A program made the translations under genes and the position numbers. A DNA stretch of 30,456 nt from a virus. Positions within the stretch are counted from its first letter, which is position 1; each line of letters opens with the position of its first letter. The notes under the pieces were generated by a model. It did not search any database. It was not told where the DNA came from and saw nothing but the letters and a program-made list of their open reading frames with translations. The stretch is taken from IMG/VR virus record IMGVR_UViG_3300002519_000006, positions 14,776 to 45,231 of that record, one strand, 5' to 3'. This document shows positions 1-28,415 of this stretch, piece by piece.

Positions 1-161
1 CCGCGGCCGGCCGGTCCTGTCGTCCAGCCACTGTCATATAAGATACCATTATCAAAAAAAGAATAATAGGCCGGCCTAAATCGACTTTGTGATAATCGAT
101 ATCGTCCCCATGGGGTTAATTTAATCTCAATTACTTCTTCTTTTTTATCAAAAAATTCCAT
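1..161 (-). CDS. Conserved phage structural-type protein, N-terminal part only
   Basis: This is the first 53 codons of a gene that continues beyond position 1. It begins at ATG 161-159, sharing one base with the TAA of the 4009-aa gene (TAATG junction), which supports the start and translational coupling. The product opens MEFFDKKEEVIEIKLTPWGR and continues with an aromatic stretch (RPAYYSFFDNGILYD). From memory, this opening (FDKKE-VI-IKLT--G, then YY-FFD) resembles a widespread, uncharacterised family found beside tail and baseplate genes of T4-like environmental phages. No catalytic motif is visible. A role in the tail or fibre is inferred from position only. Confidence 0.8.
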   Translation of the reverse strand, partial: MEFFDKKEEVIEIKLTPWGRYRLSQSRFRPAYYSFFDNGILYDSGWTTGPAGR

Positions 162-3100
162 TATTCATCACTCTTTACGGGTAGTAGTGGGTTGACTATA
201 TTGACGTTAAGTTCCTCATTGGTTATTTGTACTGTGCTGTCGGGCTTGGTATGAGAATTGTATTGAATCCCCGTATCTACTTTAACTAGCTCCACTAGTG
301 AAAAATAATCATAGGGCCAGTTGTATGAATAAGCCAACGTAGGCTCTGGATCGATAACCCTTGTATCGACAACTCGCGTGCCGCCTTTGCTAATTTGTCC
401 CTTATAAATGGTAGACTCTTTCCTAGCAAAATCATTATAATTGTTCTCGGCCCTCTTCTTTACCTTAAAAACTACCCATTGTAAATCTTCATTAACTTCA
501 CTTCGGCCCAAAAGTTCACGCGCTAAAAGCTTATGCTTTATTTGCGATACCTTCTTTTCTATTTTACTACTAAAAGAATCGCTTCCTTGGTGACCCGGAG
601 GCAAATTCTGCCACATATCAACATAATCTATTTGATCCATCTCCATTGAAAATTCGAAAATATACATAGCAATAGGCGCCATCTCCGGATTCATGACAAA
701 ATCGAACCTGGGTGGGAAAACGTACTTTTTCATCATAGCAATTTGTTGTTTAACAGTCTCAGAGACTTTTGTAGACAGACCTATAGCATCAGGGAAAGAC
801 AAGCGATCTGCCTTGTTAAGATCTAGAATTAATTCTACTTGCTTTCTACTAAGTTCGAAGAATTTGCGACGGCCATCCGCACACAAAATAAAGGGAAGTG
901 CAACAACCGCCTCTTCTAATTTGCCGCCCGACTTCACTTCGCCGACCCTTTGTGGGACTCCTACTTCAAATCCTAACCGGGTGGCCAAATCTTCAGGAGC
1001 GCGTACGGTCACCGGGGTCCCATCGTCCGCCGAATAGGTAACCACGTGTGGTACTGTAATTTCTGCGAAAAGACCTTCTGCTCCAACAGGTACAGCACCA
1101 TATTGGTGCCACATGCCACTAGTTGCAATCGAGAAGTTATCACCAGCGCCAGCGCCGCCGCCACTCGGCTGCCAGCCGGTCCACCCGTACGGTTGGAAAG
1201 TGAGCGCGCTGAGTTGGCCCGGGTAAGCACTTGGCATCGTTATATCATTATAGCTATGGGTTAAATGTACGTAATAATTGGTTCCCGCATCAGTACGTCG
1301 GGCCAAGTTGAGGAGCACCGGCGCGTACATGGAGTTGGTGCCGTCGCCCTCGAAGAGTACCTTGTTAATTACATTTCTTAGATGATTCATGTTGGTGCCG
1401 CCGGAGCCCGTAAGCTGCAGCAGATTAGATTTCCCATAACCATTGATGGTGTCGGCGCCTCCGGTGCCCTCGAAAACGAAACGCGTCCAAATCACGTCCG
1501 AGCTACTAGTAAAAACGGCCGGGTCGAGATCCGGATTATAAATCGGAATCGAAACTTCGTTATTCAACGTGGCGTCGCTGCGGGTGTATACATATGCTTC
1601 TGGGTACTCAGGAAGGCCGCTGCCGCGGCTGTATGGCGGAAATGGAACGGAGGTCTCTACACCGGCAAAGTTTAAAACGGGTGTTTCAAATTTGGTTTGT
1701 ATAAGCCACCGAGGAGAAGTGGCAAAATTGCCGAGAGGCGACGGCCCCAACACTGACCTTTTCAAATTAAAACTGGACGATAGCTGCATGGCAAACCAAG
1801 TGCCCATCGCATCTGGCGTGGCATTTCTATTAAGAGCGCGATCATAAACAAAAATCGAATTGTCCCATATATCAGAAATTTGCTGTTGTCCGTTGCGGTC
1901 AGGCGTAAATATGATCGTACAACTACCGCTTCCATCAAAATATGGTGGAGTTACGTGTGCATAGCTTGCCGAATGAATCGGGCCCCCGCTTTTTGCTATA
2001 CCCTGGCTTTGGTCCAGCACACACGGCATTCCAAACGCACTCTTGCGGTTATACATTGTAAAGGAGCTTGTCAAGGCCATCCCGGAATTATTACTAGCAT
2101 GATTTCCTGCCACAGGATCTAAGGTTCTATATAAATTCAATCTAAGGGCATAAGTTTTATCCATTTGAAAATCATCATTAAACTCATCCTGTATAGATGA
2201 AGCAAAACTGGTTAATCCTTTTTGGAAGAAGTTGACCGTTTCGCAAGCAAAATTATCGGCGGCTAGCTCATATAGTTTACTACCGCCTCCGGTCCACCTT
2301 ACTCGATGCGAATGGAGATATTGCGCGGCGCCGGCATAGCTAGCGCTGGAATTCCAAAACAGACTGCCGGTTTGGATTCCCGGCTGATCAATGATCCAGG
2401 ATCCTGAAATGGCTCTCTCACTTAAATAATTCCTGGGTCTTAGAAGTGCCTCAAATGGTATTCTCTGAACCCCGTATTGCGCGGTCTCGTAGTTAGTCGG
2501 CGACGATTGAGGATTGGGATGCTGGGTGCCGCGCGCGTAAGTGTCGTCGGGATATGCACTCATACTTAGGAGGCTAGCAGAGGGAAATTGTATCATTCCT
2601 TCTGGCAACTGGGTGCCGGTGCCCACAGATGATGCAGCGCAGCTGGCCCATGGATACTGCCAGCCAAGCCCCGACTTATTGTCTAGAGTATTAAATATAA
2701 CGTAATTGTCCACAGCAATTCCTGATTTAATAGTATTAAATAAAATTCCTGGCCCAAAGAGAGGATCTAATAGCGGACGATGACCAATTGCCGAATCCTG
2801 GCTATAATTGTACGAATAGTAGCCGATGTTGGCGCCTTGCTCTATATACGGTGCGTAGGAAGAAGAAAACAAACGAGACAGTTCTACGGTTCTCTCAGCC
2901 GGATAAAATCCCTTATAAGGCAAAAACTTAAGTAACGCTGTACACTCTAGAGCTATCACATCTCGTTTCAGAATATCATCATTAATCAGAACCTTATTGT
3001 CGTATTTTTCATCCACAATGCTGAAAAGCTTCAGGAAATCAGAATTCATATATGTCTTAAAGAAATCACTTTCTACGCCACACAGCGAATACGTTTCATC

Positions 3101-6100
3101 CTCATTCGAAATCGATCCGCCGGTTAATTCAAAATATGTCGTGGGAGCTAAAAAGTCTCCGCCCTTTTCATTAATATAAAAATCCATTTTTTCACTTATT
3201 CTGAATTCCGGAACTATTGAATAATCTTTTCCTATTAATCTCAAGTTCTTACAATATTCACTATAAGTCGCGTAAGGTCTCTTATTCGCCTGGGTCCCGG
3301 CCGTCCATTCTGCAAAGCCGCCCATACAGGGCATGCCCGTGGAGGTTTCCCCTACCGGGATGGGCACATTATAGATAGCTGTACTGGCAGTTAGGAGGTT
3401 CGCTAGGTCCTGGAAGACCAATCCGGCGCCGTCCATGAAGACCTCGACGCCGTACCTAGTAAAGTTATTTTGAAGCTCGCCGGCGCCGTTGTAAGGAGTA
3501 TCTAGAGCGCTGGCACTAGTGGCAAAAAGCGTTGGTGCGTCTAGAGGCCAGATGCTGGCATCTGGGTTTGTCCTCGCAACAGGCTCCCCTACGGTGGGAA
3601 GCCAAGACATAACTTCTTCATCTATAACGGTTCTCGCTGCTCTGGCATCATTCCATATATTTGCTATTGTATAGTTCTCGCGAGTCCTGGTTCGATTTAA
3701 ATATGCATTATAAGCAGCTGGGTATACTCGTTGTTTATAGTTCGCCGCGCACCTCAACATTTTAAGGAATGGCGTATGGATGCCGGCTTTAGCCTTCACA
3801 AAAAGGCTGTTCATACGATTAAAATAAAGATCTCCGCGGTCCGTATCGTATTTAAGACCGAATTGGGGCCAAATCTGGCCCAAATTAGAAAGATATTCTA
3901 TTTTATTGCCAAATGAGCTGATGTATTTTCTTACTTGCTTTTTACTTACCTGCTTGCCTTCTTTAGTGTCATATTTATTAAGGGACACAAATATGTGTTC
4001 TAAGGGGTGATGCTCGCTTGCCACACATGGTTCAATATAGTTTTTAAAAGTATTAACCAGCTTCGGCCGCGGATTCTGCCATATGGTCCAAGCTTGTGTG
4101 TGGGCCCCGTAGGTTCCATCTCTTATAGAAAGAATGTTCTGTTTTTTGTGGAATCTCGCAACAGGACCCTCTCCGGTTCGAACCTGCTTCCATGATGGAT
4201 ATTGATATGGGCCGTTGCGGTGAAGCATGAGAGCGTTAAACATATAGGCTGCCGCGGCGCCGAAGCTGTTGACGGTCGTCCCGGGATTTGCCGTGGACTG
4301 GCCAACCGGGTTAGAGGTATTGGTGATCATTCCCTGGCTCCGTTCGTCGGCGAGAGTAGGCGTATCAAGGTTCCTGTTGGCATATTGTGTCGCGGTTCGG
4401 TTGGCGAGACCGGTCTCTTGACCCCAAAGCGGTACCGTTGAGGCAAAGCCTAATATGTTTGTTGTGCAACTAACTGGATCTTTAAGATTAAAATTTATAC
4501 CAACAAAGTCTGTTGGGACATGAGATCCTGAAACTGCGTACGCGTGGTTGGCCATTATGGCCGGGGTTCCACCCCAGGTCCACTCGAAGTTGCTGTTGCT
4601 GTTGACATATGAACCCCACTCACTTCCTGAAATTGTTGCATCCGACATCGGATAATACGCAGTAACTTCATATCTTGAGCCGGCTATAGAGGTGGGAGTG
4701 ATCGCAACGTCGAGGCTGTTTCGGGTACCATTACGATCTCCAATTTGATCGAAAAACAAATTATTGGTGCCGTCTATCTCTCCATATTGAGAACCCCATC
4801 GCCTGCCATCACCCATGCGCCACCACGAGATTAGATTGTTGGAGTCCATTCTCTTAAGATCGTGGGCGCCGGCGTTATTGTACAAACGCGTAATCTGTTT
4901 AGCACTTAAGGCCTCGTTCCAAATTGATACTTCGTCGATGTAGCCATCCCAACAGCGGGACAGGGTTCCGGCCCGGTTTCCAATGAGTGAATTATAAGTA
5001 TCTATGTTGTCTGGACTCGAAGCACCCGTACTCCCCAGAACGGTCGCGTCGGCGCCGTTAAGATAAATTTTCATGCGTCCGTACGAGTCTCCCGCACCTC
5101 CACCGGCGTCCAAGGCCCCGTCAAAAGTACAGACCACATGAGTCCAAGTACTTAAAGGCACCGTATCGTCCGCGGTCTTCACGTAGTTGGCAGCTGGTGA
5201 ACCTGCGCGCTGGAACTGAATTAGTTTATCATTGGTATACCGGATACGGATATCGCCCGTACCCATTTCTACTACACGCCCGAAGCCGGCCTCGCCGGCG
5301 TCGAGTGGATTCACCCACGCAGAAATAGAAAATGGCTTTGCAGCGCTACCAGCACCTCCTATTAAGGCATCCCACGTGGCCGGCGTTCCAATATCGATAT
5401 AATCGCCAACACCATCGAACTGAACCGACGCAGTATTGGGATAATACCTATAGTACTCTTTTTCGTCATAACCAAACCACGAAGAGCCCGGATCCAACGA
5501 TGCCGTAATCCAGGCATATTGTCGATCCGCCTGTGGAATGGGGTGCTGGACATACCAGTTATCATAGCGAGAGCCTGTAATGAGGGGGAACCCGGACGAT
5601 CCAGTAAAGTTTCCCGATAATTCCAAGCGTCGACGACGGTTCCTGTTTACCTTATGATAGGCCGGCTCGCACGAATTTTCGTTAAGATCGAGGCGTCCGT
5701 AAAGAGCATCAACAGCCTCAAGATTAGGAAGGGGGCCCCCTGCTGGTGCGGACAGAGACCCTGTATTAATACCAGGGCGGAATACCGGATCCGACCCATA
5801 TGGGCCACAGTGCGTTGTTAACAACGCTTGTAGCGCTCGCCAATGTCCACTTTGATCCTCGGTCCAAACCCAAGGAATCCAATCGAGCTCCCGATTTTCT
5901 TCATCATTCGGGTCTATATTAAGACCCGCAGGACCTCTTACTGAAAGATTTCTAAACGGGTGAGCATTATAGACTGACTTTTCCTCGTGTGCTGGATCCA
6001 TATATCCAAGGGATGCTACTTCATAACCGCCGGGTGCACCAAATCGATTTACAATTACTGTTTGGTTAGAGTTGGAGCCTATTCGCTCAGGAATTTCATA

Positions 6101-9100
6101 TGATAGATTACCGCTGAGGTTGTTGGTCAGTGCCCCTACAAAAGGCGGCGAGACCTTTTGAATCGCGCCCGCGAGGAAATTACCTGGTACACCGCCCTGA
6201 AACGGTACCTCGTCTTGTATTGCGGTATAAATGCCGTCTCTAATATTGTCGCCTAACTGCCACCAGGAAAGAAGATGGTTTGAGATCGTTGCTGATCTTA
6301 AATTCCAGCGGCGGCCATTATTATAAATCTCGGTGGCGTCTGCTTGAGATAGCTCTTTAGTCCAAATAGCCACATCACATAGGTGGCCTTCAAAGCCCTG
6401 GTTGAGGTTCGAGTTGTTGCCGATATAAGATATAGCTCCATCAATCGCTACCGGCGCATCGGCAGCTACTTGACTGTTATTATCAAGAACTCCATTAATA
6501 TAAATCGAGGGGGCGCCATCGGTGTCCCCGGGATATGTTGCAACGACGTGATACCATTGATTTAAATTTAAGGTGCTCGAATCCACCCGGCCGGCGGTAG
6601 AACCATTAATATAAAATCTCAAGGTATTGGTAGACCCCTGCCAGCCTAGCTGCCGGTCGATGAGGCTAAGATTAATTATCCGACCGTAGTTGAGGCCACC
6701 ATCTCCCGTAGCATAAAACCAGGCCGAGAAGCCAAATGCCTTTGCTGCGGCGCCGGCGCCACCTATTCTGTTGTCCCACGGGGTTCCATCAGTCGCCCCG
6801 TTACTAATATCTATCGCATTGGTGGAGTCCGCAAACTCAATTGAATGAACGAGAGGGGGCGCAAGAACGCCGCGGCCTCGAGTTGCTAATGTTTCAGGAT
6901 ATTGAGCAAAGCTAAATGATTGATCCTGGAAGAATGGATCGTTAATACTACGGCCGGCCGTTTGAACCACTTGATAATTCTTTATATAATTGCCGATCTT
7001 GCTGTGCATTATGGTGCCGGACAGTCTTACCTGTGGAACAGCGCCTGTCATTAAAATATTTTTAATATTAATAGGACGCTTGGCCAGCTCGTCTCGCAAA
7101 TATATGGCCCTTGGACGATTAAATAAGTAAGGAGGAGACACCGCTGGAGACCCAGGATCTGGATAGTCTGGAGATACTAGTCCTAGGGCCCCGACAGACG
7201 CTATTGGAGATCTTGTTAAATCAATGCCCGTTAATATTTTATAGCCTTCTGCTCTATCATCAGCCGAATCTAGTCCACTAAACGCAGGATTTCTGGACCC
7301 GGAGGCGTTAAGTGCAATATGCCGCACTTGTCGTCCTCCAACAAATTTCTCTGTAAATGGACTTTGTAGCGGAGTTTCCATATCATGACCGTACGTATCG
7401 GCGTGCAGATTCGTAAGCAATACAGAACCGGTAAATCCCTCAGCAATAACAGCATTATAGCCAGTATTAACAGAGGCATTCCACTCCGGCAAAGACGAAG
7501 TAATCTTATATAAACTAAAGGGCGATAAAGTATTGCCATGGCCCACTAGGCTTGGATTATCGCCTTTATTAACCTGTGCGTCTAAAGTAAAATCAATACG
7601 CTTTTTCTTGTGGAGTCCCAAATCATCTATTGAATCAATAGTTTGATCAACATCTTTACCGAAAGCCAGCATTATATTCTGTGGTAGATTGGTTCCTGGT
7701 ATCAGTGCTCCTGCGGGTGTGGTAGACGTATAGACGAAACCTATCTTTTTATTACGATGATAGTTTGTACCGCAATATATGACCTTGGAGAGTCTAAATT
7801 TATCCCGATAATGTGTTGTCTTTTTTCTATTTCTAGTTTCTTTTGTAACATTTAGTATTCTGGTGCGACTAAAATTTACTCCCGCATCGGAGGAAGATAG
7901 TTGTGTGGCAAAAGTAGATAAAGAATTTCTTTCAGCCAATTCTTTCCACCAATTAGCGTTTTGATCTTGCTTATTACTAACCGGATGATGCGTATTCTCC
8001 CAACCAGGACTAAGAGGCAGAATAGATTGGACGGTACCGAGGGGATCCCCCGCTTCCATCTCCAAGGTGGGAAACTTGTGATCATACTTGTTTCTTTCTA
8101 AAATGTGGCTTTCAATCATCAAATTAATCTTGTCGGAAAAGGCGGTTGACGCCGGAATGAGCTGCACCAGCATTTGTGTCAATGAAGAGTCGAACCACTT
8201 ATAAAATTCGATATATTTGTCAAGATCCGGCTCGTTCTCTATGTTTTGAAAAAACAGCTGCCGTAGCTTATTTAAGTCTTTATAGTGTGGGCGATATCTG
8301 TTAATGGGCGCGCCGACTATATTATTAAAATCTATAATTGTAGAAAACATTTTAAGCATTTCTTCAGAAATAGCTTGATACATGCTTTTTTCAAAAGCAA
8401 AGAAGAAGTTAATTGGTCTCGAATCCTGTACAAATAGGGATTCATCGGCAGTATTTAAAACTTTTATGGTGTCTTCAGAATATAGGTTCTCTGGTAGGTT
8501 TAATTGAGCACTAGGAATAAAGTTAGTGTCAACTATTTTTAGTGAAGAGGTGGGGAATCCCAATCCGCGACCTGGATGTCTGAGTTCCAACGTGGGTCCT
8601 AAGAAACCATAGCGCGTTGCCGGAGAGGAGCCGGAGGAATAGTCTGCAACTTCAAACTCTCCGGACGCGCTTGAGCCAGTCACTTGCTCGAAATCCCAAT
8701 TCAAAGCCAGCGTCTCTATTTGAGAAACTCCAAAATTTCCTCCGGGCCCAAGACTTGCGCTATGTTGATATACGTATGAATTCTGAAGAGGGTGTGCGCG
8801 GCCGTAGTTTTCCACATCTTTGGCGTGGGCCACAATTATATCATCCTCTAAATAATCTAACCAGTATCTTAGAGCGCCAATTTTAATATCAGTGGCGGTT
8901 AAGACCGAGCCAGTAAAGTTTTGTCGATGCGCGCCGGCGTACAGTCGTTTAGAACCTGTTACAAACGCTGCGGGCGGTGCACTAATGGTGCCCGTAAGAC
9001 TAAATTGGTTCAGTGTTACTCCGGCATCGGTTTGAATTCCAAAAAATTCTACGATATAGTCGTTAGGATTGGTTGAATAAGTGATATAATCAGCTGTGGG

Positions 9101-12100
9101 ATATTTAGATGGTTTAATTTTAACAGCAAAAGTCCACTTAGAATTATCATAAACTTCACTATAATACGAACTTGTTAATAGCGGTATCACGCCTCCCGCG
9201 TGTTGGCTAGATGATAACTTAAATTTAGCAGCCTTAGAAAGGCTCGTATTGCGAGTACAATATACTTGGAAATTAGGAGCATCATCAACGCCCCACGTAG
9301 GATCTCCTTCATCATCAGTTGAAGCGCTATGTATCCCAAATAGGGAAGCATCCAGGGCCTGATATTCTTGAGTGTTGGCATCGGGGTGAGTGAGTGGCAG
9401 CTTTTTGGGGAATATAATTTCAGCCTCAATTGTTTGAGCATAGCCCCCTGTTAGCTCAAATGCTCCAGATATATAACCGACCGTATTGGTATTCAAACTA
9501 GAAGTCTGTTGGTACACAGTACCAGTAAACCTATCGATGTTATTGAAATCAATAAACTTTTTACGAACCGATTTGAGAGTCCTGTTGTCCCTAAACTGAT
9601 ATTCAACATTGTCTCCATACATGTTGATCTTGATTATTTCTTCGCCTATGCCAAAACAACGTATAAGATTTCTAAATGATTTTAAAGTGCCTTTAGATTT
9701 ATAAATGTGTATGAGATTATTGTAGATGTTCTTATAAATGATGTTTTTAATGTCAGTTAAAGATTTATCATATAGCCGATCTTCGCTTCTGTCGGCCAGT
9801 TGCTCTAGAACATCCGCATCTAAGAAAAGCTCTGGAGAAAGAAGCCCTCTTCCTTCTAGTAAACGATTCGCAAACACATTCGGCTTGTTTGAGCCGCTTA
9901 CATAAGCAACATCTTTTAGACGATTTATGCTTTCAATTTGTAAATGAAGACTATCAAAATAGCTTGCCATAATCTGAGCTAGATTTTCTAGACCGGATCC
10001 TCTTTCGGCATCTTCCTCCTGCATCCAAGAAGGAAACATATTGAACATGCTGGCATTATTAGTAATGTCATAATCCGAACCACTGGCCTCTAAGCGCGCT
10101 TGGGTTGCGGCGACGTTCGGATTAGAAGAATAAATGATAGGATCTCGGAATTCTTTAGTCGCGGCCGAAGATGAAACTATGGCCGAGCCCGTATTTCTAA
10201 TTCCGGTATAGTATGTTGCCCCGCGCGTCCAGGCGCCGTTGGTTACGCGACCTGAATAGTCTAAAATAGTTAAGTCCGTACTCGCAATTCCTGTAATCCC
10301 TTCATTAAACTTGTAATATACTCCCAAATTGGTATTGGCCGTATCCGTATTGGTGCCTCCACCTACCTGTGTGAACCAATATCTACCAATATCTTTTGAT
10401 GTTCTTTGCGTTTTCCAATATCGGAATTCGTCCAGGGAGGCAGACAATTTGCCAGCATACTGTGCCCCATCTGAACCAGAGGGAGAAGTTACAAGCGCAC
10501 CAATAGTTGCTACTTTGGCCCCGCCTATCTCGCCAACACTTCCAGTAAGAGTGGATATGCCCACGTCTAGGGTATCGTTTAAGTCTCCATCGGCGTAAAA
10601 CCTAACTCGAACAGCATTATTTGAGGGGGAGTAGGATTGAATCTGGCTTGCAGCCATTGCTGTTATTATACTATCTGAATAGCCGTCCATACCTCCTTTT
10701 TGATCGACAATATTATTAGTGGCCGAGGGTGTATCGGTGCCATCAAAGCTATCGTCTGGATCGTTCCCCATCTTCCACCATGAAAGAAGACCCGCAGGCG
10801 TCGAGGCTGCCAGAAGGTTATTCATAGAGCCGCGCTTATAAAGTGTTCTAATTTGTGTTGGGGTCAAGACGATATTCCAGATGGCTACGTCACCAATGTA
10901 GCCGTCCCAGAAGGCGTCGCCGGTAATCTGGTAACCTCCGATATAGGCCGTAGCACCGATGTCAGCAACGGACGTTGTAGCCGTGGGAGTACTGGTCTCG
11001 TTAACACCATTAACATATATTTCCATTGTACCATTGCCATCGCCATAGGTGCTTCCGCCACTATAGCTTATAGCGACATAATACCACCGGCCCGGGGGGA
11101 AAGTGTTGGCTGTATATAGTGTGGTGATTGTTCCCCCAAGGCGAACTGAAAAGGCAAATTTTTCTGCAGAAACATTATAGAGAAGATTTCGGTAGTAGCT
11201 AAAATTGAATATCGCTGGGGTTGTCTCTGTCGTGTCCTCCTCTAAATAGACCCATGCCGCAGCCGTAAAGGGGCGCGCATTGGTGGTTGCGCCTCCAATT
11301 AAGTCACTCCAGTCCCCAATGTTTATTCTATTTTCACCAGCAGCATCGAAGAAAATCGATTTGTTTACTGTATCGGTATTTTTCAATGTAACTGCGTAGT
11401 GCGTCCAGCTTTCGTCTGCAACCGATGCTGTAGTAATTGTGTTAGCGCCAACTGGTCTAGACTGGAACCCGGTAGTGCCAGACATTAAAGTCAGCATGAA
11501 CGGATTGCTACCTTCGTCACCGTGGCCCGAAGCGGTAAGCTCTAACCTAAAGCGTCCATATGTACCGCTGCCGGTTTCTTCGTTATTCCAAAGATCAAAT
11601 ATAACTTCCTTCTTGGTATTATCGGTATCAAATGCATCCTTTTTCAGCCAAAACTCTAATGAAACACCGCCTGATACATCTAATTTCAAATTAGATTCGC
11701 GATTTTGAGAAGTATTCCATATATTTGCACCAGCGCTTTGAGGGCCGCCTCCCAAGCCCGGGCCGCCTTTAATATTGATATATTCTAACTCGGCCGGAAG
11801 ACCATACCCATCATCAATAGAAGTCTGAGCACCCCACCCACCATAAGAGAAATTAATATAACCGGTAGATCGTGGATATTCGTTCTCTAATATGTAAAGG
11901 TCTACAAAGGACGAACTGTTTTGCCAATCTATCCTTTCGTATAAAGAGCCGTCATAAGGATAGGTTTTGTAAATATTTGTTATGGCATCGGTATAATATT
12001 TTTTGGCCGATCCATAACGAGCAAAATTTTTGGGTTGAGAATAATCAACGGCCGGAATGAACCGCTTCTCGTTTTTAATATCAGCCCTGTGATAGTCTAC

Positions 12101-12190
12101 TGACTCAACTTCGGACGCAATCTCGTTCTCAGACTTGTTGACGAGAGACTTTTGAAGTTCTATATTTTTAAATAAATCTTTTAAGCTCAT
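161..12190 (-). CDS. Giant 4009-aa baseplate/tail-fibre protein with gpI-like segment and multiple LamG modules
   Basis: A single uninterrupted 4009-codon frame. Seen in order: an N-terminal region (1-130); a LamG/concanavalin-like domain split into halves at about 170-275 and 524-640, with a complete second LamG module between them (about 276-523); a helical segment (about 690-870) ending in IYKSKGTLKSFRNLIRCFGI, which recalls P2 gpI-type tail proteins; another probable concanavalin-like sandwich (about 890-1110); a segment containing NKLRQLFFQNIENEPD (about 1300); further LamG modules at about 1780-2010 and 2250-2500; and a long unassigned C-terminal part. LamG domains usually bind glycans, so receptor or surface-polysaccharide contact is a reasonable inference. 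Placement after gp6/J and the 526-aa gene matches the P2 gpI/fibre position. The ATG at 12190 overlaps the preceding TGA (ATGA). No signal peptide is seen. It may combine roles that other phages split between wedge and fibre proteins, but that is inference. Confidence 0.85.
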   Translation of the reverse strand: MSLKDLFKNIELQKSLVNKSENEIASEVESVDYHRADIKNEKRFIPAVDYSQPKNFARYGSAKKYYTDAITNIYKTYPYDGSLYERIDWQNSSSFVDLYILENEYPRSTGYINFSYGGWGAQTSIDDGYGLPAELEYINIKGGPGLGGGPQSAGANIWNTSQNRESNLKLDVSGGVSLEFWLKKDAFDTDNTKKEVIFDLWNNEETGSGTYGRFRLELTASGHGDEGSNPFMLTLMSGTTGFQSRPVGANTITTASVADESWTHYAVTLKNTDTVNKSIFFDAAGENRINIGDWSDLIGGATTNARPFTAAAWVYLEEDTTETTPAIFNFSYYRNLLYNVSAEKFAFSVRLGGTITTLYTANTFPPGRWYYVAISYSGGSTYGDGNGTMEIYVNGVNETSTPTATTSVADIGATAYIGGYQITGDAFWDGYIGDVAIWNIVLTPTQIRTLYKRGSMNNLLAASTPAGLLSWWKMGNDPDDSFDGTDTPSATNNIVDQKGGMDGYSDSIITAMAASQIQSYSPSNNAVRVRFYADGDLNDTLDVGISTLTGSVGEIGGAKVATIGALVTSPSGSDGAQYAGKLSASLDEFRYWKTQRTSKDIGRYWFTQVGGGTNTDTANTNLGVYYKFNEGITGIASTDLTILDYSGRVTNGAWTRGATYYTGIRNTGSAIVSSSAATKEFRDPIIYSSNPNVAATQARLEASGSDYDITNNASMFNMFPSWMQEEDAERGSGLENLAQIMASYFDSLHLQIESINRLKDVAYVSGSNKPNVFANRLLEGRGLLSPELFLDADVLEQLADRSEDRLYDKSLTDIKNIIYKNIYNNLIHIYKSKGTLKSFRNLIRCFGIGEEIIKINMYGDNVEYQFRDNRTLKSVRKKFIDFNNIDRFTGTVYQQTSSLNTNTVGYISGAFELTGGYAQTIEAEIIFPKKLPLTHPDANTQEYQALDASLFGIHSASTDDEGDPTWGVDDAPNFQVYCTRNTSLSKAAKFKLSSSQHAGGVIPLLTSSYYSEVYDNSKWTFAVKIKPSKYPTADYITYSTNPNDYIVEFFGIQTDAGVTLNQFSLTGTISAPPAAFVTGSKRLYAGAHRQNFTGSVLTATDIKIGALRYWLDYLEDDIIVAHAKDVENYGRAHPLQNSYVYQHSASLGPGGNFGVSQIETLALNWDFEQVTGSSASGEFEVADYSSGSSPATRYGFLGPTLELRHPGRGLGFPTSSLKIVDTNFIPSAQLNLPENLYSEDTIKVLNTADESLFVQDSRPINFFFAFEKSMYQAISEEMLKMFSTIIDFNNIVGAPINRYRPHYKDLNKLRQLFFQNIENEPDLDKYIEFYKWFDSSLTQMLVQLIPASTAFSDKINLMIESHILERNKYDHKFPTLEMEAGDPLGTVQSILPLSPGWENTHHPVSNKQDQNANWWKELAERNSLSTFATQLSSSDAGVNFSRTRILNVTKETRNRKKTTHYRDKFRLSKVIYCGTNYHRNKKIGFVYTSTTPAGALIPGTNLPQNIMLAFGKDVDQTIDSIDDLGLHKKKRIDFTLDAQVNKGDNPSLVGHGNTLSPFSLYKITSSLPEWNASVNTGYNAVIAEGFTGSVLLTNLHADTYGHDMETPLQSPFTEKFVGGRQVRHIALNASGSRNPAFSGLDSADDRAEGYKILTGIDLTRSPIASVGALGLVSPDYPDPGSPAVSPPYLFNRPRAIYLRDELAKRPINIKNILMTGAVPQVRLSGTIMHSKIGNYIKNYQVVQTAGRSINDPFFQDQSFSFAQYPETLATRGRGVLAPPLVHSIEFADSTNAIDISNGATDGTPWDNRIGGAGAAAKAFGFSAWFYATGDGGLNYGRIINLSLIDRQLGWQGSTNTLRFYINGSTAGRVDSSTLNLNQWYHVVATYPGDTDGAPSIYINGVLDNNSQVAADAPVAIDGAISYIGNNSNLNQGFEGHLCDVAIWTKELSQADATEIYNNGRRWNLRSATISNHLLSWWQLGDNIRDGIYTAIQDEVPFQGGVPGNFLAGAIQKVSPPFVGALTNNLSGNLSYEIPERIGSNSNQTVIVNRFGAPGGYEVASLGYMDPAHEEKSVYNAHPFRNLSVRGPAGLNIDPNDEENRELDWIPWVWTEDQSGHWRALQALLTTHCGPYGSDPVFRPGINTGSLSAPAGGPLPNLEAVDALYGRLDLNENSCEPAYHKVNRNRRRRLELSGNFTGSSGFPLITGSRYDNWYVQHPIPQADRQYAWITASLDPGSSWFGYDEKEYYRYYPNTASVQFDGVGDYIDIGTPATWDALIGGAGSAAKPFSISAWVNPLDAGEAGFGRVVEMGTGDIRIRYTNDKLIQFQRAGSPAANYVKTADDTVPLSTWTHVVCTFDGALDAGGGAGDSYGRMKIYLNGADATVLGSTGASSPDNIDTYNSLIGNRAGTLSRCWDGYIDEVSIWNEALSAKQITRLYNNAGAHDLKRMDSNNLISWWRMGDGRRWGSQYGEIDGTNNLFFDQIGDRNGTRNSLDVAITPTSIAGSRYEVTAYYPMSDATISGSEWGSYVNSNSNFEWTWGGTPAIMANHAYAVSGSHVPTDFVGINFNLKDPVSCTTNILGFASTVPLWGQETGLANRTATQYANRNLDTPTLADERSQGMITNTSNPVGQSTANPGTTVNSFGAAAAYMFNALMLHRNGPYQYPSWKQVRTGEGPVARFHKKQNILSIRDGTYGAHTQAWTIWQNPRPKLVNTFKNYIEPCVASEHHPLEHIFVSLNKYDTKEGKQVSKKQVRKYISSFGNKIEYLSNLGQIWPQFGLKYDTDRGDLYFNRMNSLFVKAKAGIHTPFLKMLRCAANYKQRVYPAAYNAYLNRTRTRENYTIANIWNDARAARTVIDEEVMSWLPTVGEPVARTNPDASIWPLDAPTLFATSASALDTPYNGAGELQNNFTRYGVEVFMDGAGLVFQDLANLLTASTAIYNVPIPVGETSTGMPCMGGFAEWTAGTQANKRPYATYSEYCKNLRLIGKDYSIVPEFRISEKMDFYINEKGGDFLAPTTYFELTGGSISNEDETYSLCGVESDFFKTYMNSDFLKLFSIVDEKYDNKVLINDDILKRDVIALECTALLKFLPYKGFYPAERTVELSRLFSSSYAPYIEQGANIGYYSYNYSQDSAIGHRPLLDPLFGPGILFNTIKSGIAVDNYVIFNTLDNKSGLGWQYPWASCAASSVGTGTQLPEGMIQFPSASLLSMSAYPDDTYARGTQHPNPQSSPTNYETAQYGVQRIPFEALLRPRNYLSERAISGSWIIDQPGIQTGSLFWNSSASYAGAAQYLHSHRVRWTGGGSKLYELAADNFACETVNFFQKGLTSFASSIQDEFNDDFQMDKTYALRLNLYRTLDPVAGNHASNNSGMALTSSFTMYNRKSAFGMPCVLDQSQGIAKSGGPIHSASYAHVTPPYFDGSGSCTIIFTPDRNGQQQISDIWDNSIFVYDRALNRNATPDAMGTWFAMQLSSSFNLKRSVLGPSPLGNFATSPRWLIQTKFETPVLNFAGVETSVPFPPYSRGSGLPEYPEAYVYTRSDATLNNEVSIPIYNPDLDPAVFTSSSDVIWTRFVFEGTGGADTINGYGKSNLLQLTGSGGTNMNHLRNVINKVLFEGDGTNSMYAPVLLNLARRTDAGTNYYVHLTHSYNDITMPSAYPGQLSALTFQPYGWTGWQPSGGGAGAGDNFSIATSGMWHQYGAVPVGAEGLFAEITVPHVVTYSADDGTPVTVRAPEDLATRLGFEVGVPQRVGEVKSGGKLEEAVVALPFILCADGRRKFFELSRKQVELILDLNKADRLSFPDAIGLSTKVSETVKQQIAMMKKYVFPPRFDFVMNPEMAPIAMYIFEFSMEMDQIDYVDMWQNLPPGHQGSDSFSSKIEKKVSQIKHKLLARELLGRSEVNEDLQWVVFKVKKRAENNYNDFARKESTIYKGQISKGGTRVVDTRVIDPEPTLAYSYNWPYDYFSLVELVKVDTGIQYNSHTKPDSTVQITNEELNVNIVNPLLPVKSDE
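4685..5437 (-). repeat. LamG module C (paralogue of modules A and B)
   Basis: Encodes about residues 2252-2502 of the 4009-aa protein. Signatures in order are SVQFDGVGDYIDIG, ALIGGAGSAAKPFSISAWVN, WTHVVCTFDG, MKIYLNGADA, CWDGYIDEVSIWNEALSAKQ, LYNNAG and LISWWRMGD. Similarity to modules A and B is clear in protein and locally visible in DNA: the stretch coding for the LIGGAG motif near 5355-5375 resembles that near 6760-6780. Hand-counted G+C of one sample line (5041-5100) is 35 of 60, against 16 of 60 for a backbone line (8341-8400). Confidence 0.7.
6150..6850 (-). repeat. LamG module B (paralogue of modules A and C)
   Basis: Encodes about residues 1781-2013 of the 4009-aa protein. It opens with SIEFADSTNAIDIS, then RIGGAGAAAKAFGFSAWFY, WYHVVATYPG, SIYINGVLDN, GHLCDVAIWTKELS, EIYNNG and LLSWWQLGD. 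The shared GGA-xxAxxFxxSAW opening and LLSWWxxGD closing signatures make it a sibling of modules A and C. It sits between backbone segments ending near SFSFAQYPETLA and resuming near LSYEIPERIGSNSN. Boundaries are approximate. Confidence 0.7.
10622..11365 (-). repeat. LamG module A, nested inside another LamG domain
   Basis: Encodes about residues 276-523 of the 4009-aa protein. The module starts near ENRINIGDWSDLIGGA, has the central SAW-type strand (FTAAAWVY), WYYVAISY, the MEIYVNGV hairpin, GYIGDVAIWN, then TRTLYKR-like and LLSWWKMGN signatures. These match the general LamG_3 pattern (W..va.., lYvNG, G.iDev.iwn..L....i..ly). It interrupts a second LamG domain: the flanks SWTHYAVTLKNTDTVNKS and AVRVRFYADGDLNDT join into one ordinary LamG core once the module is removed. 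Boundaries are accurate to perhaps 10 residues. Confidence 0.7.
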
Positions 12191-13767
12191 TCTTCCACTC
12201 TAAACTTAAAGGCCTGTGGTTGCTCGGCCCAATCTCCTATAGAATCATTGTAATAGCTTAATCCAATTTGATAAGAATAACCCGCCTCTAACGTGGCCAT
12301 ATCCAAATCAAAATAATTTCCTGATACATCATAAGACAAATAAGTGCTTTTGCTACTACCAGTTCCATAAGATACTACTTCTAAATCATCTGTTACTCGA
12401 ATTATTTTATATGAGGCACTCTGCAAAGTAAGATTTGGGGGATTTGCATTCGCTACGACATATATGGTAGGGCTCCAATCCTTGTTCCGAATAAATAATC
12501 TAAAACGAGAAATTTCTTTACGAGTATAGGCTGCCTTCAGATTAGTAATTGATGTCATATATTCGAATGTGGGAGCATTATCATAAGCTACTAGCGTTTT
12601 GGGCGCCACTGTTCCTGTAAAGAATTGAGTCAAGTCAGGAGTGCCAAAGGTCCCCGTATGCCAAACATCAAAAATTCTAGCGAGGGGAGTGGCCGCCGCC
12701 GTAATAGCAACAGAAGCAGAATAAATTCCTGCTGAAACATATCCCCCCGTAACTGACTGGTTTCCGTTATGCAAAATTAATTTTGCTCCGGATGGGGCCG
12801 TATTTGCCAAAGAGCCAGAATAGAGACTCACCATTACAGATCCTGTGGTACCCACCTCTGGAATATTTGTTAGTTTTCCTCGAACGTAATTGTATAAATA
12901 TAGTGTATTTAAGTTGTCGGGGCCCGTTGCTAAGGAACTGCTATAATAAAAGCTACCACGATCGTCAGTTTTTCTCGAGTCCCAGCGCGCTTCGAGCACG
13001 GGCCGTTTGAAAAAATACTCCGAGCTCCGCGAAAAAAACTTTTTAGTAAAATAAGTATCTTTTGCTCCTACGGTATTTTGCAAGACTCCATCAGACGTGT
13101 CTTGGCCCGTAGAGCTAGAATAATAGGCTTCTTGGCTCGCAGTCAAATGGATTCCTAATCCATAATTATCATATTTTCCACCGGAGGATCCTAAAATCCA
13201 ATCTTCCACAACGGCACTAATATTCAATTCTATATTTTCATATCCATCATCAAAAAATACCTTATAGGTGGAAATCCCGGAGCCAGTTAAATAATCTCCT
13301 CCGGCTGCTGTCCACGTACCAATTCCTGCTGGTGAAGTACCAGAAGCATTCATCCAATTCGAGCCGCTCCCGTTGTACGTAACGTCCTTATATTCTTCCA
13401 TATCAAGTCCGACGCCCTCTTCCCATGATTGTGAAACGGGTACTATATCCAAGTAAAATCTTCGAGGTAGCGTAAAGGCGGTGCGAGCATTATACATTCT
13501 AAGATACCAATCCACGCTTCCACTCGCTGGGATTGTACCGGCTGTACGATCGGTAATTACTGAATCTACCGGGAATCTTATTAAGATGCGCGAAAGCTCC
13601 TGAGAAAGCCCGCTAGACCCTGACGCTTCACCGTAGATGGAAAAGACTTCTAATACGTCTGCGGCGCCCATATTAGATCCGGTTCCTCTTTGTGTGTCTA
13701 AAAGAGAAGATCTATACGCATTTGTAATCGTATTATCAGTAGTGGCTGTATACCTCTTAATTGCCAT
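12187..13767 (-). CDS. Virion protein with DNRLRE/CBM96-like beta domain, 526 aa
   Basis: A soluble, Ser/Gly/Tyr-rich beta protein. The N-terminal half (about 55-265) has the layout of DNRLRE/CBM96-type domains: an RILIRFPVD strand, an LRMYNA strand, a QSWEEG segment (W115), NWMNASG and a GTWTAAGGDY turn (W152), a VVEDWILG strand (W190), and the closing FFKRPVLEARWDS strand. DNRLRE domains occur in adhesive and carbohydrate-binding surface proteins. The C-terminal half looks like beta-sandwich repeats. It lies between gp6/J and the gpI-like giant gene, so a baseplate-to-fibre connector or adhesin is likely. Its ATG at 13767 shares a base with the TAA of the gp6-like gene (TAATG), and its TGA overlaps the next start. 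The domain call is by eye; the structural role is inferred. Confidence 0.6.
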   Translation of the reverse strand: MAIKRYTATTDNTITNAYRSSLLDTQRGTGSNMGAADVLEVFSIYGEASGSSGLSQELSRILIRFPVDSVITDRTAGTIPASGSVDWYLRMYNARTAFTLPRRFYLDIVPVSQSWEEGVGLDMEEYKDVTYNGSGSNWMNASGTSPAGIGTWTAAGGDYLTGSGISTYKVFFDDGYENIELNISAVVEDWILGSSGGKYDNYGLGIHLTASQEAYYSSSTGQDTSDGVLQNTVGAKDTYFTKKFFSRSSEYFFKRPVLEARWDSRKTDDRGSFYYSSSLATGPDNLNTLYLYNYVRGKLTNIPEVGTTGSVMVSLYSGSLANTAPSGAKLILHNGNQSVTGGYVSAGIYSASVAITAAATPLARIFDVWHTGTFGTPDLTQFFTGTVAPKTLVAYDNAPTFEYMTSITNLKAAYTRKEISRFRLFIRNKDWSPTIYVVANANPPNLTLQSASYKIIRVTDDLEVVSYGTGSSKSTYLSYDVSGNYFDLDMATLEAGYSYQIGLSYYNDSIGDWAEQPQAFKFRVEE

Positions 13768-16032: not shown

Positions 16033-19000
16033 TTATTCGCATTCAAAACTGGTTTGATCTGCCTCATCGCCGGCGTCGCCGGCGGGACCACCGCCACCAG
16101 GCGCCGGGGCGCCGCCACCCGGTGCACCGTCCGCAGGTGCTGTCTGTGCCGGGTCAGCGCATGCCCACGTCGAAGTGGGGCTCTCAGATAACTGATCATT
16201 CTCGCTGTCCGATCCCAACCCTGCCGGGGGAGCGGCAAAGTGAGGATCGTCGCCAAGTATACATTCTTCTAGAGCCTTTTGATGATCAAACATTTCTTGT
16301 AACTCCTCTGCAGAAAGATCGAAAAGGATATACGCCCAACCTAGCGGGCCAGGAGGCAAAATAGCCATATAAGGTAGTGTTCCGATCAAATCAAAACCAA
16401 AAGGCTTAAACTTTGGACGCAATGGTTTTGGCAGCGCTACTAAGTCTGTGTCGACTTGTTCCTGTAGTCTTTCAAGCATGTTGTCGAGGGTACCCTGGCT
16501 ATCGTACGTTCTTACCATTTGAAACACCTGGCCGCTTACATCACGAATTTTTTTACCCACCACAACATGGGGATCAATTAATTCTGCTAATCCTTTTAGA
16601 ATTAATTTGGGAGTTTCCAGGAACATCTTTAACAGGAACGACATCCCCATAGCCGCAAACTCGCTAGCGGCCGTTCCAAGAAGTCCAGCAGCGGCTAGCC
16701 CTGCTCTCTGTGAGGCCGTCTGAGACTCTTTATCCACATATGCATAATCATCGCCGGCGAGGGCCGCTTTTAATATAATCCTCAACGATTTTTTAGTGTC
16801 ATTAAAAATGATATCATACTCGCGGGTGTCGCCTCCGGTTACCAAAAGTCCATACATAAACAAAAATGTTATAACATCTTTAGCATTAATGGCCTTTCCA
16901 AATAATTCTTTAAAGGCTTCGCTCTGGGCCATCTCGTTGAGTATATTATTTTTATAGTACAAGAAATAATTATTTGTAATGTCGTCACGTATGTACGGTG
17001 GCGGAAGAAAGTCTGACCCACGCAGTTTATTGCTCCACATATAGGGATTTAATAGGTTGCGATCGAGTTTGCTTATAAGTTGGCGGTCAGCTTGTACACT
17101 AGTGGGAACAGAAATGCTATACCTGCTGGAGGCCATCGGCAGAAGAAGTGCACTTTTATTTCTTATTAGCTTTGAAGCCTGACTAACTGGGGTCCGGACT
17201 CCCATAATATTAATCAGGCCGTTCATCAAGTTATGAACTTCAGTACCGTTCGCTGGGTACGACATGCTCGAGTTACTGTTCTCACCGCCGACGGTGAGCA
17301 TCGAGAGCATTCCGAAGGGCGATGTTGGAGGAGTATAATATACCACTCGCGATCCAACATTAACATTAGTAACAATTTCGCCCAAAATCTCATCAAGCCA
17401 TTCATTGTCAGTCCATGTCTCCGAAGCATCCGGTGGGGCTAAACCAAGTTGTGCCTCGGTGGGACTGTCTGGCGTCGGCTGCTGCCCGGGCCGGGACTCT
17501 CTTTCCGGCTCCTGGCCGGGCAACGCGAGGAGCCCGGAATCGTCGTCATCGCCAACGCCATAAGATAAAAGAAAGTCCTCCAGGTCATCACGACGTACAT
17601 TCATCAATGCGGTCATCATGTGAGCTGAGTACTCGTCAAATGGTACTATGAGCGTCGGCCTTGCGCCCCATGCTTCATCGCCGTCGTCGATGACGGACGG
17701 GGACGCGTCATGAACTCCCGGGGTTTTATAAATATCAGTTACATCTTCGGCAGTTAGGCTATACCATGGTTGCGCTTCGAAGAAATAGGTCCCGTCCTGG
17801 TTCTCGGTACCGAAGTAGGGATCCCCCTCACTAGGGCCGATATTATCGTCAGCATCGCCGGGATCTTCTTTCCATATAGTAACTTTAACTTTGATATGGT
17901 TATTAAAATCTTTATACAAATGCGACACGAACTGGTGCGACCAGTGGCCGTGGTCGGAGAGGTGGCTGACCAAGCCAAAATCACTTGGATTATAATTTAT
18001 ATTCTGCACCGCGTCACCGATCACGTACTTCCGGCCGCTGGCGACGGTTGGCTCTGAGGCAGTGAATCGTCTAATCAGCTGCGACCGGCTGCCCTCGTGC
18101 TTCGCCAGCACACAATCCCAATAGGTGACTGTCGAGCCGGCTACACCATTGCAGGGCTCGTCGCCTTCCGCGATGTGGTCGAGCCCCACGCTGGCCGCTT
18201 CAAAATCGAACCCGGTTGGGAGATCCGGATAGGCAACTTTCCTATCCAGTCGTAACTCGCGGGGTTTACTTATTATCACGTCAGACATTGAGGCCTCTTG
18301 ATTGCCAGACTGCCTATCAGAGTAACCGACGAACTGGCCGGCGAGGCCGTTGGTGAGGCTCACAGTTCCGTAGTACTCATGCTCATATTCCAGACTATCA
18401 TATCCGTGGCCTGCACCATATGCATGAGGGGCATGTTTGGACAGGCTGTCTTCATGGATATCCTGCGCTCCAGGATCCTGGTCGGGGCGCGTGGTGCGTA
18501 CATCCCTAATCATGTGGCCATCCAGGTGGTTCAGTCTAATATCGGCGTACCGGATGTCGGACCCTTCGGGGCGGTGGTGCTTCGAAAGAGCGAAGTTAAT
18601 CCAGTCTTCGTCCTGAACAAACCCGTTCACGTATGCGCCGCCCGTCATCTGCGACGCGCGTGTAGTCATCATCATACGTTTCATAAAAAATCTTACAGCA
18701 TCATAATTATCAAGATTCAAAAATCCGATGTAGCCCTTGTCGTAGTTGCCGATGCCCGTGACGAGGCCGGCATCGTCTTGCGATATTCCGGTGGCCGGGA
18801 TGTGGGGGGTGATGAATGCTAGTTTTATGGTTCTCAAGAATTTATCTATTTGAGTGGCGCCTAGTTTTGCTTTGAGGCTCTCGTCGTTCAGCCCATTAAG
18901 AAAATGATCAAATCTCTCAGTGCTTACTACGTGGCGGACCTTGCCGGCAGAATACGCGCCGGGGGGCACGGGGGGGGTTCCTTCCGCAGCAATGAGTGCG

Positions 19001-22000
19001 CCATTATCATCAACAAAAGCGACGGCAGACTCCGGGTGCTTATAGGATACAGCCAGCTCGACATCAGGCAGTAATCTTCGAAAAACGTTTTTAAGTCCTT
19101 CCTCGTAGGCGAACTTCATATATGCATTCCGAGCGGTGAATGTGCTATTGCCATGGCTGATATCTATAGTGTCGCCGCTTCCATCAATTCGATATCTCAT
19201 GCCCTCAAGCTTATTATAATCGTAATCAAAACTAACGTATTTTTCGTTTACAAAAATACCATTATCTTTGGCGTATTCAACCAAGTCCTCCGGTGCAAGT
19301 CGCCCGGGCTCGTTTAATTCCCAGAGCTGGTTACGCAGAGCGCGCCATTCGTCAGTCTCGGAGACGCCCGGCGGCATGTCGCGCTCCAGCCCATTCAATT
19401 GCTCAATGAGATTCTCGCGGGCGGCTATATCGCTACGACTATACCCAGGAAAAATCATATCATAACTAAATTGAGCCACGGGAGTGTCCTCACTCTCCAC
19501 ACCATCAAAGTGCAGTGGATCTGCTTCGCCGTGGCGCTCCGGAGAAACCATCGCTCGTAACACTTGGCGCGGTGATCCATCGCCGGAAGTAAAATCAATA
19601 GTGTTTTGGTACCCGGTGCCGGCGAGCAGGTGCATTATTATGTTGTGAGCAGATATACTGGGGGGATTAACCAGAGGAAATACCTGTCGCATAACAATAC
19701 TATTAAGATTGCCATCTTCATTTCCAAATGCAGTCAAGATAGCTGAATTTAAGTTGCCTATCCTCTCCTTTATTATATAATCTAATGCCCAATCCCCGAA
19801 CGCCGTAGGCAACGTACCTGTTTCCTCAAAAGTCTGGGCTCCGGTAACTATTTGTGATGGGACTGCCAGGCCGTCGCCGTCCGGATCAAACGGGTTGGAT
19901 ATCATGCGCTCGGCCTCGCCGTGTAATTCGGCGCGGCTTATAATCTTTTCTACATAGATAGCGGCCGCTTTTTTAAGATTGTTGAAAGTTGAACCTTCCA
20001 TCGCCTCGTCGGTACCCAATATTGAACTCCTAACTCCTCCAATCAGCTGCTCTGTGACCAGAGGGTTATAGGCGTATTCACTAAAGCCGTATATCGATAC
20101 AAGAAATATATTTCTTAGTAACTGCTCTAAAAGAAGTACTTGAATATAAGCATTCATCACAGTAAAAATTATTGTATCCTCAACGGGCCCTACTACGCAG
20201 TCCCGGTCCGTACAAGCATTGTCAGCAAATTCTTGAAGCCCTTTTAACTTTAGACTGTCAATATCAAAAAGTCCCCTACCCTGTGGCGAAAATTTCCCGT
20301 CTGGGCACGGTACTGGCTCTAGGGATAGCCTCTTTACATTGTCGGCAATAAAAAGCGGAGACTTTCGTATTTGATAGGCAGCCATATTTACAAAAGAAAG
20401 CATCGACGGCATATACATACTATATCGCGACACCATTTTAAATACATCGACGACGGCGCCAGAACCCTCTCCGGGAAGTGCCTTATTTCCGGTGTTAAAT
20501 CGATCGACCAAGTTCTTAAATGTATTATGATAATAATAAGAGGTTGTTGGATCAGGAAAGATGATGGGGTTCTCGGGGGCATAAAACCCGTTGTCCGGAT
20601 CAAAATCATTATTAATAGAACCACCTGTCCAAATACGGTTCGGTACGCCGTGGGGGGGGCCATGAGGCCCGTCACCGGTTTCATTCTCGGGAAAACGAGA
20701 TATAGCATAACTTACGCTCTGGCTACTACCGGGCGGAGTTACTCCAAATGCAAAGTTTTCCGTAGCCTCGCGTTGAGATCCCCCAACTTGAAAGTTTGTT
20801 ACCAGCGGAACTTCATCAGTTCCCAAAGCCTCATAGGCGGTGCCCAAGGGAGAAACTACTTTATAAGTTATTTGTGTCTGGCGCGCGGCTTCTCCCTCTT
20901 GAAATAAAATACCTAATTTTTGTATCTCTGGGTTGGCCGCCAATTGAGAAGCGGCACCGGGCGCGCCAGAAGGAGGGCTATCCAGATTTTGCATAAAGTC
21001 TTCGGCGCCGGCTACTGCGTTAGGGTTGGGGTCCCGGTCCTGTGGAAACGGTAATAGTCCCGCTTCTTCCAGCGCTCTTTGTTCATTTGCCGACATCCAA
21101 CCATAGTCCGGCTTTAATAAAAGAGGCTTCAAGTTCCCCAGATCATTAATAAAATTAATTTTAGGTATTTCAAAAATCGCATCCATCAAAGTCGAAATAG
21201 AATGGGCAAAGGGCGGCATGGCAGTTAATGATGGCACTACACCGGCACCACAATTGAGGTTGGGAGTTCCAAGGTCTTCAATATCTTCCAACAAATCATT
21301 ATAAAAATCTATAACATCATTAAAGTCCGCGTCGGCATCCAGAAGCTCCAAACAGACATCTAAATTCTCTGGTACTTCAAAAGGTGGTTGGGAAAGGATA
21401 GAGTCACAATAATCCGGCGAGACCATCTCTCCGATGCAAGAAAAGAAATTTATAACTTCCGAACGACTAGCTAACGCTGCCTGTAATGTAGCTAAATTTG
21501 TTTCAGTATTTATTAAGCCCCGAATAATCTCTAAAACCTCGCGAGAGGGCGCGCCGTTTATAAGACGACAACTTTCTCTAGCGCTAATATTGTGAGATAG
21601 GAGCTCTAGAAATGTATTGCCAGTTTCTACATTAATACCGTATTCCTCATAGCACCCCTCTAGGGTGGGAGGAACCGCTTTATAATCGTTGGATATATTA
21701 GGAAATTCATTGATGGCCTGAGTTAGTGGTACGCCATCTCCCGGATCTTCGCTAGCCTTACACGCCTCAACTATTAAATCTGCAACAGCACCGAGAACAC
21801 CAACCAACGTCTTGAGGGCGGCTTCTTTAAGGGCGCTCTTGATTTGCTCGGTTATTTCTTTATTAATATTAATTACTGGAAGTGTGGTAGGTAATTTAGG
21901 TATGCGTGGTATCTTGGGGGGCCCCGGAAGTTGATAAGGATCGACTCCTGGGATGGGAGGCATCTGGCCCGCTGGGATGCCGGCCTTAATCGCTATACAT

Positions 22001-27459: not shown

Positions 27460-27466
27460 ACCTCCT
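27460..27466 (-). promoter_or_regulatory. Strong Shine-Dalgarno AGGAGGT before the small-gene cluster
   Basis: A near-perfect ribosome site 6 bases before ATG 27453. Its first bases overlap the TAG of the dehydratase gene (GGTAGGAGGT), so terminating ribosomes arrive on top of it. It likely gives high translation of the 53-aa gene and, by coupling, of the genes behind it. Confidence 0.7.
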
Positions 27467-28415
27467 ACCAATGAAAATTATTCTTATAGTGTTTAACTAT
27501 ATTTTCTATCTCTCTCTCAAAATCTTTTTGTGGTTCCCAGCCCAAAGCTCGTAATTTATCATCATTTAGAGCATAACGTACGTCCTGGCCTTCTCTAACT
27601 TTGTCCCAACCCACATATTTTTGCCAGTCTTCGTCGGTACCATGATATTCTTTAATAATTTTTCGTACCGTTTCTTTGTTTTCCTGCTCAAACGCGCCGG
27701 CCACATTAAAAATTTCATTTTGAACGCCGCTCTCAATAATAGTTATAACTGCCCGGGCGGTGTCCGCTGCGTGTAACCAATTACGAACCGGGAGCCCCTT
27801 ATCGTGTAACCGTACGTTCTTGTTTCTTTGAAGCATTTTAATTGTTAATGGTACCAGTTTTTCCGCACATTGTCGTATCCCATAATTGTTGGTCGGGCGC
27901 AACAGAATATAATTTATCCCATATGTTCTCGCCCAGGCCTGAACTAACATGTCGGCAGCTGCTTTTGAGGCCGAGTAGGGATTACTTGGGTTCAAAAGAT
28001 CTCCTTCATAATGAAACCCCTCTAATATATCACCGTACACCTCATCGGTGCTAAACTGAAAAAAGGTGGGGCGTTCGCAAACATTGTCTGGTTTGTGTCG
28101 AACTACCTCCAGTAAATTTTTAACTCCTCGTACATTAGTAGAAATAAAGTCAGTGCTATCAATAATGCTATTTCCAACATGAGTTTCTGCAGCCGTATTT
28201 ATAATATAGTCGCAGTCCGGAAGCCACTTAATATCGCAAATATCTTCTCGTACAAAATAAAAGTTCTTATTGCTTTCAAATTGAGAAATCAACTCTTTAT
28301 TTGCAGCATGCGTACACTTATCAATACCATATACTTTCCAGCCGCGCTCCAAACACACTTCGGTTACATATGATCCAATGAATCCCAAACACCCTGTAAT
28401 GGTTACTATCTTCAC
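27465..28415 (-). CDS. NDP-hexose 4,6-dehydratase, RmlB-like (extended SDR)
   Basis: A 316-aa extended short-chain dehydrogenase. Seen: the NAD-binding TGCLGFIG glycine motif (7-14); the dehydratase triad region FSTDEVYGD with T123-D124-E125; and Y147-x3-K151 (NPYSASKAAADM). The TDE plus YxxxK arrangement is that of dTDP-glucose 4,6-dehydratase, where the Asp and Glu drive water elimination, and separates it from simple 4-epimerases. The nucleotide and sugar cannot be fixed from sequence. The start is GTG at 28415, one base after the cupin stop, with GGGAG upstream. It closes the sugar cassette and would supply a 4-keto-6-deoxy sugar nucleotide. Confidence 0.85.
   Translation of the reverse strand: MKIVTITGCLGFIGSYVTEVCLERGWKVYGIDKCTHAANKELISQFESNKNFYFVREDICDIKWLPDCDYIINTAAETHVGNSIIDSTDFISTNVRGVKNLLEVVRHKPDNVCERPTFFQFSTDEVYGDILEGFHYEGDLLNPSNPYSASKAAADMLVQAWARTYGINYILLRPTNNYGIRQCAEKLVPLTIKMLQRNKNVRLHDKGLPVRNWLHAADTARAVITIIESGVQNEIFNVAGAFEQENKETVRKIIKEYHGTDEDWQKYVGWDKVREGQDVRYALNDDKLRALGWEPQKDFEREIENIVKHYKNNFHW

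Follow-up and report, generated by a model that had tools for sequence, protein, structure and literature searches.

Can a laminin G (LamG) domain be housed within another LamG domain of the same phage protein, and how might such an arrangement come about? In this work, we analyse a 30,456-nucleotide stretch (the window), which is part of a 45,231-base IMG/VR virus record and carries on its minus strand, at 161..12190, one uninterrupted open reading frame for a giant protein of 4009 amino acids, P0001. We report the nesting of a LamG module in P0001, natural relatives in which the site is empty, recurrent insertion sites, and both horizontal and cross-site transfer of the LamG module family.

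Domain insertion is common: one survey put it at ~20% of multidomain proteins, and about a third of the insertion events there were not between different homology groups. Recursive same-fold insertion is described for the hybrid-motif (HABAS) domains of cyanobacterial RpoC2 (PMC13114784), and domain shuffling is already known from the tail proteins of phages (PMC10684548). Also described are mobile Ig-like domains of tail proteins and sheath proteins in phages (Fraser et al. 2006, cited in PMC10684548; PMC9230969), as well as jumbo phage virion proteins with laminin G3 domains of concanavalin fold, proposed to be host-surface lectins (PMC7824862). Nesting within the same fold and domain mobility in phages are each known, while their combination was not found in the literature searched; nor did the open-access literature searched yield a description of a LamG nested in a LamG or of the P0001 scaffold family.

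A complete LamG module inside the N-terminal LamG domain

Pfam places four LamG matches (PF13385, Laminin_G_3) in P0001, three complete and one covering only profile positions 13-98. The half-match directly precedes the first complete LamG, which is the pattern expected of an interrupted domain. With the LamG-module profile, residues 171-276 (11363..11680, minus strand, as for all P0001 features below) correspond to positions 33-104, residues 277-523 to positions 1-246, that is the entire profile, and residues 524-677 to positions 110-244, so that the inner module lacks nothing, and the outer one becomes complete once its two flanks are read as one. Residues 277-524 (10619..11362) are a complete LamG/pentraxin-like module lying in a beta-hairpin loop of the N-terminal LamG domain, which is the older of the two and comprises residues ~171-276 and 525-677 (second half at 10160..10618). 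The nested module scores 83.0 bits against PF13385, for which the curated cut-off is 27.6 bits.

The initial annotation had read this region as a LamG inside a LamG with an intact frame, and this is borne out by the uninterrupted frame, the complementary profile halves and the relatives with an empty loop. Both motifs which it had named are present, SWTHYAVTLKNTDTVNKS at residues 261-278 and AVRVRFYADGDLNDT at 526-540, with its numbers 3 residues off; a complete second LamG module does lie between the flanks, but it ends at SYSPSN (524) and not at LLSWWKMGN (468-476).

A second profile was built solely from 52 natural empty-loop relatives. Against P0001 it matches in two pieces, model positions 1-199 (232.9 bits, first half) and 180-349 (240.1 bits, second half), and when the two flanks are joined a single match of 481.6 bits is obtained, a natural empty relative scoring 507.0. 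Because the flanks score this highly each on its own, and because 52 of 63 distinct N-terminal sequences are without a long insert, the nesting is not a chance resemblance. L086 and L110-L113 show this same 33-104 / 1-246 / 110-244 pattern, and L085/L010 show it at a neighbouring loop. The outer domain of empty relatives is itself recognised by PF13385 above the cut-off (L012, 40.2 bits; L099, 37.6 bits); that of L093, also empty, is missed by Pfam, yet reaches 88 bits with the family LamG profile.

Structures were predicted with AlphaFold2 for residues 96-690 of P0001 (pLDDT 75.6, pTM 0.71) and, for comparison, for the corresponding part of L012, a natural empty relative (pLDDT 67.7, pTM 0.76). 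These models support what the initial annotation had expected, a single chain that forms two separate jelly rolls. The strands flanking the loop correspond, being 167-176 and 431-438 in the nested model and 171-180 and 186-192 in L012, as do the strands that follow, and the strand order of the outer sandwich is equal with and without the insert. In VIA structure comparison the inner domain, model residues 179-432, matches the LamG domain of PAPP-A and pentraxins with Z up to 22.2; these residues are 274-527 of P0001, in agreement with the module boundary derived from sequence. The matches listed for the whole nested model cover the inner domain alone, and the outer fold was therefore read from the natural empty relative, whose predicted outer domain matches the PAPP-A/pentraxin LamG fold with Z 18.1; on the C-terminal side of the outer domain, parts are poorly predicted (pLDDT < 60). 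By these models both the insert and the empty outer domain thus have the LamG/pentraxin jelly-roll fold. The inner domain shares this fold with PAPP-A and pentraxin (PDB 8d8o and 1gnh, Z 22.2 and 17.3) at 16-17% sequence identity, and function is not transferable from them. Taken over sequence and models, the arrangement is a domain insertion of the A1-B-A2 kind, in which a host domain is split by a complete domain and the host fold is kept.

Empty loops, recurrent sites and movement of modules

A scan of viral contigs with residues 1-950 gave 299 related stretches; in most of the 80 best of these, which were retained, residues 1-~274 and ~519-930 of P0001 run contiguously. The scaffold family is represented in environmental viral contigs by about 300 related stretches, while the INPHARED collection of isolated phages, searched with the same 950 N-terminal residues, gave no match. 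In the 52 of 63 distinct N-terminal sequences without a long insert the loop reads 'HYAxTLKSA-SAGVxTRFYVDG' or alike, which is the exact gap in homologues by which the initial annotation had proposed to check the nesting. A LamG module occupies the nested site in 7/63 (P0001 itself, L006, L007, L008, L009, L011 and L014) and the neighbouring loop in one more (L010), while in L061/L062 and L026 two further loops of the outer domain hold inserts of non-LamG type. Occurrence of the same loop in natural occupied and empty versions shows that a whole domain can be gained inside another without breaking the host domain. With the insert alone as query, the viral-contig scan returned a single match, a near-identical contig, which suggests that the nested module diverges fast.

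P0001 was compared at full length with 30 relatives, of which a few are truncated by the end of their contig. The outer LamG is always present on a scaffold of ~2830 amino acids; the shortest intact members (~2830 aa) have no other LamG and the longest reach 4733 aa, with 0-5 inserted LamG modules per protein and 53 in all. Six of the 31 members (L092, L093, L099, L103, L107 and L109) have none. In L099 numbering the inserts recur at scaffold sites 251, 280 (the nested one), 1193, 1424, 1525, 1665, 1727 and 1765. P0001 itself uses 280, 1525 and 1727: besides the nested module, it has a second at residues 1782-2016 (6143..6847, site ~1525, 231 bits, profile 1-245) and a third at residues 2254-2505 (4676..5431, site ~1727, 237 bits, profile 2-235). 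The scaffold comparison also shows an extra segment of ~160 aa and unassigned type at residues 3517-3678 (1157..1642, site ~2562).

A second mobile module type, unrelated to LamG, is ~130-150 aa long, 51-66% identical between copies, and has the motif 'ITILLDASET...IATLIxKAINGT...EGSSNTQITLTMD'. It is found at sites 210 and 1424 (both in L091, residues 211-365 and 1601-1740), 1663 and 1729, further copies being residues 1917-2072 of L094 and 2019-2216 of L087, so that some sites receive modules of either kind. LamG and non-LamG sites coincide (4/8 within 6 residues) to a degree reached in 0 of 20,000 random draws, the list of sites having been compiled by hand after the data had been seen. A third type of insert, 400-440 aa long and 39% identical, was noticed in L086 (residues 2764-3171) and L112 (residues 2848-3288), at two scaffold positions ~110 residues apart.

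Two pairs of modules bear directly on movement. At site 1193, the LamG modules of L089 and L098 have 90% DNA identity over 682 bases (dS 0.226), and this stretch starts within one residue of the module start; in the scaffold on either side identity falls to 55-59% and dS is saturated. A LamG patch of 459 bases is 95% identical (dS 0.077) between site 1527 of L065 and site 1193 of L061, the sampled scaffold stretch of this pair being 64% identical, again with saturated dS. Both pairs represent recent transfer, in the first case within a single site and in the second between two sites. The LamG module family is accordingly exchanged independently of its flanks, as mobile phage domains are, and in it domain transfers can be observed shortly after they took place (dS 0.08-0.23). 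All the recent transfers are at other sites; at the nested site none was caught among the copies compared. The recurrent sites, the two further inserted LamG modules of P0001 and the horizontal exchange had escaped the initial annotation.

The nearest known systems each share a part of this behaviour. As in RpoC2 with its HABAS domains, in P0001 a conserved scaffold houses domains set into others of like fold, but the RpoC2 domains have another fold and belong to a cellular RNA polymerase, whereas the phage LamG case includes module exchange (PMC13114784). The mobile Ig-like domains are likewise beta-sandwich modules which are added to a conserved core of the virion, pass between phages and are presumed to help adhesion (PMC10684548; PMC9230969); in contrast to them, the P0001 modules are LamG/pentraxin-like and use several recurrent sites, one landing loop lying within a LamG. 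Jumbo phage virion proteins have the same domain type, and the passages of their description considered here mention neither nesting nor insertion sites nor exchange (PMC7824862).

Probable place in the virion and proposed meaning of the modules

Sequences in PHROGs and PDB gave no match to P0001 or to its scaffold, including wedge proteins of the T4-like gp7/gp8/gp10 type, and a gp6-like protein is seen in the neighbour P0004 only. Upstream of P0001 lie, on the same strand, P0003 (526 aa, 12187..13767), a homologue of which stands beside the scaffold gene also in L117 and L118, and then P0004 (13767..15572), a gp6-like baseplate wedge protein (PHROG 10646/219, E ~5e-20; PDB 9f4a gp6, E 0.0034). 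P0006 (24261..25532, minus strand) resembles tail lysozymes weakly (PF18013, E 9.8e-5, 23 bits, below the cut-off of 28.2). As the P0001 gene is two genes downstream of the gp6-like gene and the region has this weak lysozyme match, the gene neighbourhood makes a tail or baseplate location of P0001 likely. Also encoded in the region are P0002 (2410 aa, window 16033-23265), another giant protein and one with no Pfam or PHROG match, and, upstream of the tail genes, the sugar-nucleotide epimerase/dehydratase-like P0008 and P0009 (window 27465-28415 and 29455-30381). A genome scan gave four matches, the best being L117 (7722-12401), which lies in the WOR-3 bacterium MAG chromosome CP070664.1; its loop is empty and the P0003 homologue adjoins it. 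This copy may represent a prophage, misbinning or misassembly, for which reason it is not taken to indicate a host.

LamG lectins and adhesins bind carbohydrate or protein ligands, often in a calcium-dependent manner. From the fold and the fit of the family to adhesion, we infer that the modules would bind glycans or proteins on the host surface; the two glycan-binding heads on one stalk envisaged by the initial annotation would be a putative case of this. The explanation which we consider probable is that a large virion scaffold of the tail/baseplate region starts with an ancestral N-terminal LamG domain, and that a mobile LamG module of ~248 aa would have entered one beta-hairpin loop of it in frame. 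Modules of the LamG family and the unrelated small module would be inserted at a limited set of tolerant scaffold sites and swapped between phages by recombination; protruding from the virion, they would act as interchangeable adhesion heads for glycan or protein that tune attachment to the host, while the scaffold presumably keeps the assembly contacts. A further-reaching reading, which we put forward tentatively, is that of a cassette system, in which the giant virion protein would offer a few docking sites, one of them in its own LamG, which would repeatedly take up and release LamG and other modules and exchange them from site to site and from phage to phage, thereby altering the surface in contact with the host. 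Movement of modules may renew the phage parts that touch the host. Should the modules be adhesins, this would be a further route to diversity of phage receptors besides the swapping of fibre tips.

The main competing explanation, which we regard as unlikely, takes the modules to be structural or neutral: harmless in exposed loops, they would add bulk or contacts between subunits and not bind the host. It would accommodate the six of 31 members without an inserted LamG, and the unrelated module at the same sites is as expected if these are merely permissive; moreover, for the additional Ig-like domains of sheath proteins a role in adhesion or in stabilising virions has been suggested (PMC9230969). 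Against it, dN/dS is 0.25-0.57 in the recently transferred modules and ~0.1 for the nested module versus L006 (a weak value, as dS is saturated), which points to constrained and not decaying sequences; a constraint on folding alone would match these values as well.

Quite unlikely, in our opinion, is an old occupancy of the loop, by which most relatives would have lost the module and the nested copy would be no recent mobile insertion. Modules of the nested site can form one clade (not rejected, p 0.80, in a quick tree with many open forks), six of them have a C-terminal signature in common, and the most divergent member, L014, is also occupied. A single clade of the scaffolds that carry these modules is rejected by the AU test (p 6e-41 with six rows, 4e-5 with five rows), and at least 6 changes of nested-site occupancy are needed on the scaffold tree. 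Since module and scaffold trees disagree, this module lineage was either spread between scaffolds or lost repeatedly, and the counts taken alone fit either. Old occupancy would need many clean losses of exactly one module, leaving the same short loop each time; the occupied forms are few and interspersed among the empty ones, and exchange of modules is directly seen at other sites.

Finally, a misreading of tandem LamG domains as nested, or a chimeric contig, can hardly be credited and is refuted by comparison of occupied and empty loops: LamG repeats are common in P0001 and metagenomic contigs can be chimeric, but the gap is exact in 52 relatives, the profile halves are complementary, a second contig (L005) matches at 100%, and an assembly chimera does not explain why the six other occupied contigs share the arrangement at 37-61% identity.

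Among the relatives, long arginine-rich or Lys/Gly/Ser-rich tails (e.g. RRRRRRRRR) were also noticed, at the C-termini of L088, L091, L098 and L104 and at residues 4196-4325 of L095.
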